A stretch of 64,000 bases of DNA, taken from contig NZ_BNBV01000001.1 of the NCBI RefSeq assembly GCF_014656135.1, positions 372,001 through 436,000 on the forward strand, in the 5' to 3' direction. Below are positions 31,686 through 34,246 of the stretch, piece by piece (position 1 is the stretch's first letter; each line of letters begins with the position of its first letter). This stretch comes from Streptomyces thermodiastaticus (GTDB taxonomy: Bacteria; Actinomycetota; Actinomycetes; Streptomycetales; Streptomycetaceae). The notes under the pieces are model-generated. The model made no database searches and was not told the DNA's origin. It worked only from the letters and a program-made list of their open reading frames with translations. The position numbers were made by a program, and so were the translations under genes.

Positions 31686-31721
31686 ACCTGTGTGCTCACC
31701 TGTGTGCTCACCGGCGTGTTC
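31686..31721. repeat. 12-bp tandem repeat, three copies, sbcD-sbcC junction
   Basis: ACCTGTGTGCTC occurs twice in tandem (31686-31697 and 31698-31709), then a diverged third copy ACCGGCGTGTTC (31710-31721). The sbcD stop codon lies within the last copy. Being a multiple of 3, unit gain or loss would be frame-neutral. Confidence 0.75.
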
Positions 31722-32886
31722 ACCGGGCCACCGCCTCTCGTTCCGCGGCGTCCACGCGGACGGCGTCGAAGGCCTCGCGCAGGATGTCCCGCTCGTACGG
31801 GTCCGGGCCGGCGCCGCGGACGTGGGCCACGAAGTCCTCCGCGATCTGCTGGTCGCTGCGGCCGGCGAGCCGGCGGGCGTAGGTGAGGACCGGGTCGCCG
31901 GGGGCGCGTTCCGGGGCGAAGACCAGGCTGAGGATGTGCGGGAAGCGTTCGGCGAGCCGGGCCATGGGCTCGACGGGCCGGACCGCGTCGGTGAGCGTGG
32001 CCTCCACCCACGATGCCTCGTGACGGGCGAGCGCGGGATCGGCGAGCAGCTCCTCCAGGGTGCCGCGGATGCGGGCCAGCGGGCGCGGCACGGGGCAGTC
32101 GATCCGCTCTGCGCTGACCTGCCCATCGGCGTCCAGGTCGACCAGCCACATGCTCTTGCGGTGGCCGGCCTCCGAGAAGGAGTACGGCAGCGGGGAGCCG
32201 GAGTAGCGCACCCGCTCGGTGATGGTCTGGCAGCCGTGCAGGTGGCCCAGCGCGACGTAGTCGACGCCGTCGAAGACGCCCGCGGGGACGGAGGCGACAC
32301 CACCGACCGTGATGTCCCGTTCACTGTCACTGGGCTCGCCGCCGGTGACGAAGGCGTGCGCGAGGACGACGGAGCGGGTGCCGGGCGCACGGCCGGCGAG
32401 GTCGGCGCGCACCCGGTCCATGGCGGCCGTCAGCACGTCTTCGTGGCCGGCCCGGTCCACCCCGAACTCGCCCTTGACGACAGCGGGTTCGAGGTAGGGC
32501 AGCCCGTAGAAGGCGACGTCGCCGAAGGCGTCGCGCAGCACCACGGGGGTGCCGCAGCCGGCCGGATCGGTCCGCAGATGTATGCCGGCGCGGTCGATGA
32601 GCCCGGCGCCGACACCGAGCCGGCGCGCCGAGTCGTGGTTGCCCGAGATCATCACCGTGGGCACACCGAGGCCGGCGAGCCGGTGCAGCGCGTCGTCGAA
32701 CAGGTCGACCGCGGCCAGCGGGGGCACCGCCCGGTCGTACACGTCTCCCGACACGACCACCGCGTCGACGTCCCGTTCCCGCACGGTCGTCACGAGGTGG
32801 GCGATGAAGTCGGCCTGGGCGCCGAGCATGTTCACGCGGTGGAACGCCCGGCCCAGATGCCAGTCGGAAGTGTGCAGCAGCCTCAT
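31720..32886 (-). CDS. sbcD: SbcD-type exonuclease (Mre11-like)
   Basis: A 388-residue calcineurin-like phosphoesterase. The metal-binding motifs are D-W-H-L-G (residues 8-12), G-D-V-Y-D-R, S-G-N-H-D, a late H-A-F and G-H-L-H-G. With SbcC it forms an ATP-dependent nuclease acting on double-strand-break ends and palindromic hairpins. ATG 32886 gives the standard M-R-L-L-H-T-S-D-W-H start. It is the first gene of the two-gene operon and lies next to a decayed patch at 33041-33614. Confidence 0.95.
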   Translation of the reverse strand: MRLLHTSDWHLGRAFHRVNMLGAQADFIAHLVTTVRERDVDAVVVSGDVYDRAVPPLAAVDLFDDALHRLAGLGVPTVMISGNHDSARRLGVGAGLIDRAGIHLRTDPAGCGTPVVLRDAFGDVAFYGLPYLEPAVVKGEFGVDRAGHEDVLTAAMDRVRADLAGRAPGTRSVVLAHAFVTGGEPSDSERDITVGGVASVPAGVFDGVDYVALGHLHGCQTITERVRYSGSPLPYSFSEAGHRKSMWLVDLDADGQVSAERIDCPVPRPLARIRGTLEELLADPALARHEASWVEATLTDAVRPVEPMARLAERFPHILSLVFAPERAPGDPVLTYARRLAGRSDQQIAEDFVAHVRGAGPDPYERDILREAFDAVRVDAAEREAVAR

Positions 32887-33040
32887 GGTCGTCGAAGACT
32901 ATCGGCCGGGTCTGACAGCGGGGGCGGCCGCTCCTCCGCGCGGCCGCCGCGTGCACCTGCCGCCGCCCCGCCGGGGCACTCCGTCAGGGGGGAAGCCGGC
33001 CGCCGTGCCATCGCACGACCGCCCGCCGCGAGGTTCGCAC

Positions 33041-33180
33041 CGCCGGCTCCAGCTCGCCGCCCGGCTCGGCCTCACGATTCCGCCGACGCTGGTCGCCAAC
33101 GACGTCTCGAGCGCGCCCGCAAGTCCGCCGCCGGCCACGGCGCTGTCGGCTCCAGAACTCGCCGCGGCCTCCCGCGATGA
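33041..33180 (+). pseudogene. Fragment of an ATP-grasp peptide maturase
   Basis: One plus-strand frame reads R-L-Q-L-A-A-R-L-G-L-T-I-P-P-T-L-V-A-N-D, the stretch that opens the ATP-grasp domain of MvdD/TgmB-like ribosomal peptide maturases. A one-frame shift near 33110 continues it as R-K-S-A-A-G-H-G-A-V before a stop at 33180. No start codon, ATP-binding core or catalytic C-terminus remains. The identification rests on about 35 residues and is tentative. Confidence 0.45.
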
Positions 33181-33225
33181 GGACGCACACACCGGCGCGG
33201 TCTGGGCCCAGCGCGTGGACTGCGG

Positions 33226-33360
33226 GACTTCGACGAGACGCTCGCGGGTGGCCGCCCACCTGTTCCAGGGAGAACTGAGGTCGGTGACGTCTTCGATGAC
33301 GCCACCGCCTGCCTGACCGATGAACTGTGCGGTACAGCGGTGCGGAAGGGTCTGGCATGA
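33226..33360 (+). pseudogene. Headless C-terminal ORF fragment
   Basis: An open frame with acidic residues (D-F-D-E-T-L-A-G-G, then V-F-D-D-A-T-A-C-L-T-D-E-L-C-G-T) ends at TGA 33358-33360 and overlaps the caspase-like start by 4 nt (ATGA). The overlap suggests it was once the upstream gene of an operon. No start codon is available and I cannot name the family. Confidence 0.35.
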
Positions 33361-33614
33361 ACACCTACGGCATGCGCGAGTCGCGGGGCGAGCGCGAGCA
33401 TGAGCCGCGGCGTTTTCTCATCGCCACCGCCGTCTCCCGCTGCCCCAAGAACCCCGCGTGGGACCGTGCCGGCCTGGAGCAGGCCCGCCAGGACGTCATC
33501 GAGCTGTTCACGACCCAGCTGGGCTGTCGCCACGAGACCGCGCTGGGCCTGGACCCGACCGGTACTCAGCTCACTGGCCATCTGCGAGCCTTCTGCACCT
33601 CTCCTCGAAGGCGG
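33357..33614 (+). pseudogene. N-terminal fragment of a caspase-like protein
   Basis: From ATG 33357 the frame encodes about 86 residues that match the opening of Streptomyces caspase-family proteins as I know them: R-R-F-L-I-A-T-A-V-S, W-D-R-A-G-L-E-Q-A-R, I-E-L-F-T-T-Q-L-G, and H-L-R-A-F-C-T-S. The catalytic His and Cys that should follow are missing, because the sequence runs straight into the 3' end of the opposing yigZ gene. It is a truncation, most likely by deletion. Confidence 0.55.
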
Positions 33615-33619
33615 AAGGC

Positions 33620-34246
33620 TCACACGTCCCCGTACGTCTCCCCGCCCAGCTCGAAGCCCGCGGTGCCCGCGGTGGCGTCGGCCAGCCAGGTCCGGAAGGC
33701 ATCGACCTCGGCGTCCGGCAGACCGATCTCCAGGGTGACCGCCTCGCCGTAGCGCACGTCGCGCACCACGCGGCCGGTGGCCCGCAGGTCGTTCTGCACC
33801 TTGCCCGCCCGCTGGTGGTCCACGGTCACCGTGGCGAGCCGGAAGCGCCGGCGGGTGCGGGTGCCGAGCACGTCCAGGGTTTCGCCGACCGCGCCCCCGT
33901 AGGCCCGGATGAGGCCGCCGGCGCCGAGCTTGACGCCGCCGAAGTAACGGGTGACGACGGCCACCACGTAACGCATCTCGCGGCGCAGCAGCATCTGGAG
34001 CATGGGCACGCCGGCGGTGCCGCCCGGTTCGCCGTCGTCGCTGGCCTTCTGGATGCCGGCGTCGGCGCCGATGACGTAGGCCCAGCAGTTGTGGGTGGCG
34101 GTGGCGTGCTCCCTGCGGACCGCCGCGATGAAGTCCTGTGCCTCCTGCTCGGTGGCCGCGGGCGCGAGGGAGCACAGGAAGCGAGAGCGGTTGATCTCGA
34201 TCTCGTGCGTGCCCGGGCGGGCGACGGTGCGGTACTCGTCCTGCAT
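33620..34246 (-). CDS. YigZ/IMPACT family protein
   Basis: A 208-residue protein of the UPF0029 family, related to E. coli YigZ and eukaryotic IMPACT. The signature D-D-G-E-P-G-G-T-A-G-V-P is present, as are H-N-C-W-A-Y and R-Y-F-G-G-V-K-L-G-A-G-G-L-I-R-A-Y. Function is unsettled; translation control or nucleic-acid binding has been suggested for relatives. It abuts the truncated caspase-like fragment tail to tail. Confidence 0.9.
   Translation of the reverse strand: MQDEYRTVARPGTHEIEINRSRFLCSLAPAATEQEAQDFIAAVRREHATATHNCWAYVIGADAGIQKASDDGEPGGTAGVPMLQMLLRREMRYVVAVVTRYFGGVKLGAGGLIRAYGGAVGETLDVLGTRTRRRFRLATVTVDHQRAGKVQNDLRATGRVVRDVRYGEAVTLEIGLPDAEVDAFRTWLADATAGTAGFELGGETYGDV

Follow-up and report, generated by a model that had tools for sequence, protein, structure and literature searches.

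Two described systems come closest to the gene remains analysed here. Graspetide synthases of the TIGR04187 type (GRASP_SAV_5884) work in a system with the TIGR04188 methyltransferase, named as a frequent partner in the available part of a graspetide survey (PMC8939145); graspetides include the microviridins, which are serine protease inhibitors (PMC13039773, from the portion available). The second is the pairing of an alpha/beta-hydrolase with a caspase in NTP-dependent conflict systems, already described in the excerpted text of Kaur et al. 2020 (PMC7159879).

We have examined a window of 64 kb (contig 1, 372001-436000, of a 6.1-Mb genome) in which remains of both kinds lie between sbcD and yigZ, two genes separated by 733 bp (32887-33619). 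The synthase piece shares up to 80% DNA identity with genes of the TIGR04187 plus TIGR04188 system and differs from it in that the window retains ~86 of ~327 codons, with a broken frame, and with neither a precursor gene nor a methyltransferase seen beside them. What the other remains have in common with the pair excerpted from Kaur et al. 2020 is found in their relatives, where a caspase gene adjoins an alpha/beta-hydrolase gene, whereas in the window a hydrolase tail and the ATGA overlap are all that is left, and truncation has removed the catalytic His and Cys. The patch is ordinary: accessory genes of two known kinds have left a scar at a site that varies between relatives. With a probability of roughly 90%, it is dead DNA, the remainder of one or two insertions at the yigZ-sbcD junction that were later cut down by deletions.

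Gene pieces between sbcD and yigZ

Both genes bordering the patch are intact (Table 1). The first we take to be sbcD, from the name given in a preliminary description of this DNA, and the second is presumably yigZ, as named there. That description placed three decayed plus-strand pieces between them, an arrangement that we recovered with the same family assignments. Pfam profiles gave zero family matches on the fragments.

Table 1. Coordinates of the patch and of the presumed flanking genes in the window.
Feature	Position	Strand	Evidence and remarks
sbcD (presumed)	31720..32886	-	intact flank; 388-aa open frame; 82-90% identity in 67/80 junction loci
Relic A, decayed internal graspetide synthase piece (ATP-grasp peptide maturase, TIGR04187 type)	33023..33280	+	blastn, tblastn, TIGR04187
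Relic A/relic B fusion point	33281..33295		limits approximate; ends of DNA matches
Relic B1, end of alpha/beta-hydrolase gene (~20 codons plus stop)	33296..33360	+	tail match to L106; blastn to L114, L113
Relic B2, first ~84 caspase-gene codons	33357..33608	+	protein and DNA matches; cut before catalytic His and Cys
yigZ (presumed)	33620..34246	-	intact flank; 208 aa; 86-93% identity in best 80 of at least 510 confirmed YigZ loci

Relic A has lost both gene ends. Its 227-bp core (33043-33269) shares 77-80% DNA identity with the closest intact synthase genes by blastn; among 392 genomes the best DNA matches were in G123 (E 3.6e-51, up to 80%) and G349, and the alignment to G017 begins at 33023. 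By tblastn, residues 119-209 of the intact synthase map to 32993-33277 (E 3e-16). Because the MvdD pre-ATP-grasp domain of the intact protein spans residues 4-119, relic A starts where the ATP-grasp domain starts, in agreement with the frameshifted domain start described earlier: when aligned with intact genes, the core has four small gaps, by which the frame is lost and regained. The TIGR04187 profile scored 29.9 bits on relic A (E 3e-7), against a curated cut-off of 350. Judged by this score, relic A is a fragment of a TIGR04187 member and not itself a member.

The second piece had been described as a headless ORF tail. It is real but composite: only the last ~20 codons derive from a hydrolase gene, and the upstream part of the frame is synthase DNA read in another frame. 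The tail DDATACLTDELCGTAVRKGLA corresponds to HDATAYLTDKLCGQAIAAGLA in L106, and the blastn match to L114 and L113 runs from relic B1 on into the caspase gene. Best DNA matches to synthases stop at 33269-33282 and those to hydrolase-caspase pairs start at 33296, which places the approximate fusion of relics A and B. The ATG at 33357 and the TGA at 33358 form the ATGA overlap (33357-33360) from which a former operon of the last two pieces had been proposed; this proposal holds, and the overlap recurs in intact pairs.

Relic B2 matches longer frames with 68% identity in G034 (L106; E 2e-28) and 54% in G020 (L107; E 1e-19), so that the caspase-like head of the preliminary description is confirmed; a query with the L106 caspase domain likewise finds the head in the window at E 3e-27. 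Given these values, together with those of the synthase piece by tblastn and blastn, chance resemblance of the fragments was rejected. The DNA match of relic B2 reaches 33605, and the piece ends ahead of the HG and CxSG motifs present in intact copies. Across ~310 bp of relic B there are zero frame-breaking gaps and from its start codon on the caspase head is unbroken; such gaps as occur relative to relatives fall in the poorly conserved caspase leader and amount to a net multiple of three against L114. The codon-position pattern of relic B2 is 0.97 (65 codons), compared with 0.95 over 136 intact pairs and 0.73-1.17 for single intact genes, as calculated from ungapped segments only in 17 of 22 loci. 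A value inside the intact range suggests a recent loss, on a codon count that is small.

Intact relatives of the two families

Searches covered 392 genomes, an even draw from a larger group, which we call Streptomyces since that genus accounts for 79 of the 80 top YigZ matches (the other is labelled Actinobacteria bacterium OV320). With five candidates scored per genome, the synthase query found 194 genomes at E <= 1e-40, the source genome included; the latter carries one synthase of another subfamily at this threshold (C5:1746-2693, 50% identity, frame open). The intact synthase P0002 (L007) reached 394 bits with TIGR04187, above the cut-off of 350, and its neighbour, aligned to positions 1-249 of the 363 in TIGR04188, scored 342.5 bits, short of the cut-off of 380 for that model. 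A methyltransferase match was present in 23 of 24 synthase loci (the exception is L110) and adjoined the synthase except in L109, where it lies ~5 kb from the synthase body. A small gene with a median of 107 aa recurs in 18 of the 24, and the small gene directly upstream of the L109 synthase would fit a precursor. By family, the intact synthase would introduce cross-links into a small precursor peptide, in which an aspartate would be the target of the methyltransferase partner.

Several synthase loci show features of their own. At L109:3847-10167 (G006) the synthase is split, its last ~33 codons lying ~5.3 kb from the body and beside the methyltransferase, as after an insertion. The G017 methyltransferase frame (L007:324-1142, L108:6544-7737) has 272 aa compared with the 363 positions of the TIGR04188 model, and the separate 89-aa frame that closely follows may represent the end that broke off. 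Matches to the synthase piece occurred in four plasmid records, three of them with a tgmB annotation. Several synthase relatives (L144, L145, L150, L157 and plasmid hits H17-H20) are located close to the end of a chromosome or on a large plasmid, and others in the interior.

The caspase-domain query (six candidates scored per genome) found 42 of 392 genomes at E <= 1e-20, including the fragment in the window and thus 41 of 391 others, with identities from 100% in the query source down to ~30%; the source genome gave no further caspase match at this threshold. Intact caspase genes encode 1421 aa in L106 and 1426 aa in L107. The L107 protein combines Peptidase_C14, an NPHP3_N-type NTPase and WD40 repeats according to Pfam profiles, and the L106 architecture, where a stretch is masked, is similar by eye. 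Of 30 relatives, 20 contain the His motif and 21 the Cys motif as defined by two strict text patterns. In 29 of the 30 fetched loci the caspase gene is preceded by an alpha/beta-hydrolase gene (L125 is without it; L134 has a tail alignment only), and direct search located the hydrolase in 21 of 22 loci fetched with wider flanks. In half of the fetched loci (15/30) a candidate ATG, GTG or TTG start forms an ATGA-type overlap with the hydrolase stop, and ORF coordinates place the end of the hydrolase gene inside the caspase start in L107 (= L123). When predicted genes were clustered, any further gene was shared by at most 7 of the 22 caspase loci, as counted with a simple gene caller that misses genes (it picked up the caspase in 18 loci and the hydrolase in 13).

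L106:6258-11602, L107:12594-17803 and L112-L141 are laid out as two-gene alpha/beta-hydrolase and caspase units. Outside the genus, the two genes also occur on a plasmid of the cyanobacterium Leptolyngbya, where they share 4 bp, and in Rhodococcus a plasmid carries a hydrolase gene followed by a WD40 gene. The pair is fairly common in the genus, and some carrier genomes are distant.

The intact pair was compared with described systems. In the excerpted text of Kaur et al. 2020 (PMC7159879) the caspase is the VMAP component of MoxR-vWA systems, whereas in L107 it forms one protein with an NPHP3_N-type NTPase and WD40 repeats; this NTPase-WD40 form was not found in the available part of that paper, and we claim no novelty for it from a literature search that was not exhaustive. 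The L107 protein also matches the EACC1-associated caspase NF047832 (System 4 of Kaur et al. 2020; E 3e-15), but at 56.3 bits it stays below the cut-off of 140 and its upstream partner is a hydrolase, not EACC1. Among the models of known anti-phage defence systems in PADLOC 2.0.0, none matched the L107 caspase protein, the L107 hydrolase or P0002 at E <= 0.01. Among solved structures none matched the intact caspase domain, and the single match of the hydrolase (E 0.099) was taken as chance. From these family assignments, hydrolase and caspase would act jointly, the NTPase and WD40 parts serving to sense and switch and the two enzymes to execute.

Linkage of the families and the yigZ-sbcD junction

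The preliminary description had regarded the patch as the decayed form of a possible undescribed ATP-grasp and caspase module. The intact relatives disagree: the families stood apart in every locus examined, and the actual partner of the caspase is the hydrolase. With flanks of up to ~10 kb, some of them shortened by contig ends, none of 22 caspase loci contained a synthase and none of 24 synthase loci contained a caspase or a hydrolase; neither sbcD nor yigZ occurred in these 46. The 22 represent as many of the 41 other caspase-positive genomes, and the 24 come from synthase-positive genomes with at least 69% identity to the query. No locus among those examined in the genus had ATP-grasp gene, middle ORF and caspase gene in this order. 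A DNA search with the patch matched 37 of 392 genomes at E <= 1e-8, the source included, and among the matches listed, with two candidates scored per genome, only the source genome had a match spanning both pieces. In G349 both families share a contig, 72 kb apart. Overall, 22 of the 41 caspase-positive genomes also carry a synthase, against 20.2 expected (P 0.34; source genome left out; both-family genomes read by eye from the two search results). A phage as carrier of the fused patch found no phage match in its support, and a plasmid carrier fared no better, since each of the four plasmid records has the synthase piece only.

Alignment of sbcD-yigZ junctions from close relatives, proposed in the same description, uncovered a variable site but no intact module in it. 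We analysed 80 loci, the best YigZ matches of at least 510 confirmed and not a random draw; the nearest relatives among them are Streptomyces. Where both genes lie on the fetched stretch (67 of 80 loci), they are a median of 126 bp apart. In 56 of 77 measurable loci the gap is 300 bp or less, and in the other 21 it is 0.7-28 kb, namely 0.7-4.1 kb in 11 and about 6-28 kb in 10, the latter worked out by hand from contig coordinates (L045, L054 and L091 could not be measured). On the sbcD side, homology of the window to the S. mexicanus junction breaks off at ~32948; it returns at 33620, the yigZ end. Caspase, hydrolase and synthase were all missing, at E <= 1e-4, from 22 stretches taken at 21 enlarged junctions.

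Origin of the patch

We infer deletion as the cause of the present state, and likewise the number and order of insertions. Accessory genes would have entered the short yigZ-sbcD spacer, once or in two steps, and most of them would then have been deleted. A deletion at about 33285 would have removed the rest of the synthase, whatever came after it, and the hydrolase gene except for its last ~20 codons; a second loss would have cut the caspase gene after ~84 codons, within 15 bp of the yigZ end. In favour of this account are the different partners of the intact homologues, their lack of linkage and of excess co-occurrence, the absence outside the source genome of a match spanning both pieces, the four gaps of relic A, the end of the caspase head ahead of its motifs, the lack of a further caspase match in the source genome, the variable junction and the break in homology to S. 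mexicanus. Two observations pull the other way. The relics are neighbours on the same strand, as they would also be if one ancestral island had held both, and the caspase head is unbroken with an intact-like codon pattern. A further point against it is that no intermediate state of deletion was found among the relatives examined.

Within the dead-patch account, one island may have carried both a graspetide cluster and a hydrolase-caspase pair, with no functional link, and then suffered internal deletions; we hold this for a real possibility at somewhat under even odds. The shared strand and adjacency of the relics in one gap speak for it, as do the ten relatives with about 6-28 kb at the junction, while the enlarged junctions yielded neither family and no examined intact locus holds both. 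Against it also stands the uneven decay, with four gaps in 227 bp of relic A and no frame-breaking gap in ~310 bp of relic B, a contrast expected in about 3% of cases by chance at equal decay rates. The unequal gaps therefore mildly favour separate ages of the relics, and hence two separate insertions.

Whether one insertion or two, the patch as dead DNA leaves room for a short peptide that could be expressed from 33357. That the caspase head is still translated, giving a peptide of ~86-132 aa with a regulatory role, appears very improbable: its open frame does extend to 33752 with an undisturbed codon pattern, but the extension runs into yigZ antisense, the catalytic and sensing parts are gone, and none of the matches listed for the 392 genomes shows this truncation.

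An equally slim chance attaches to a functional three-part module in which a graspetide regulates or inhibits the caspase. Apart from the adjacency of the pieces in the window, it draws on peptide-processing systems that are accessories of related conflict systems in the excerpted text of Kaur et al. 2020 (PMC7159879), and on a peptidase, 'possibly' of the alpha/beta hydrolase family, likely co-expressed with Branch 2 ATP-grasps in the available part of PMC8939145. The three-gene module was nevertheless rejected on the absence of linkage in 22 and 24 loci and of any excess co-occurrence over background. In addition, the word caspase is absent from the main text of the graspetide survey (PMC8939145) as available, and 'ATP-grasp' from the main text of Kaur et al. 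2020 (PMC7159879); the combination is not described in the accessible part of a follow-up paper (PMC8195603), and no system of ATP-grasp and caspase genes is apparent from the titles and abstract openings of the papers listed. Least probable of all is that the lost island was a working unit, its graspetide restraining or tuning the hydrolase-caspase pair, that survives intact only in unsampled lineages. That no module is left standing spares others the chase.

The yigZ-sbcD spacer is itself a variable site in Streptomyces, with cargo of RiPP type and of NTPase type in some relatives, and the content of enlarged junctions differs between relatives (L026-L105, L219-L229). At L028:6829-10274 and L074:6791-10203 a radical SAM peptide maturase lies beside an AAA/TPR protein; the L028 maturase scores 507 bits with the AmcB model (cut-off 425) and the L074 copy is 88% identical to it. 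L223:390-5986 holds a gene that weakly matches nSTAND3 and HEAT, with a small unnamed gene ahead of it and further unnamed genes behind, and L219 and L225 contain genes similar to this set by eye. A row of genes occupies L224:745-7446, namely a kinase-like one that weakly matches lanthionine synthetase models, a vWA gene and some without a name, and L221 has a gene similar, by eye, to the one in L224.
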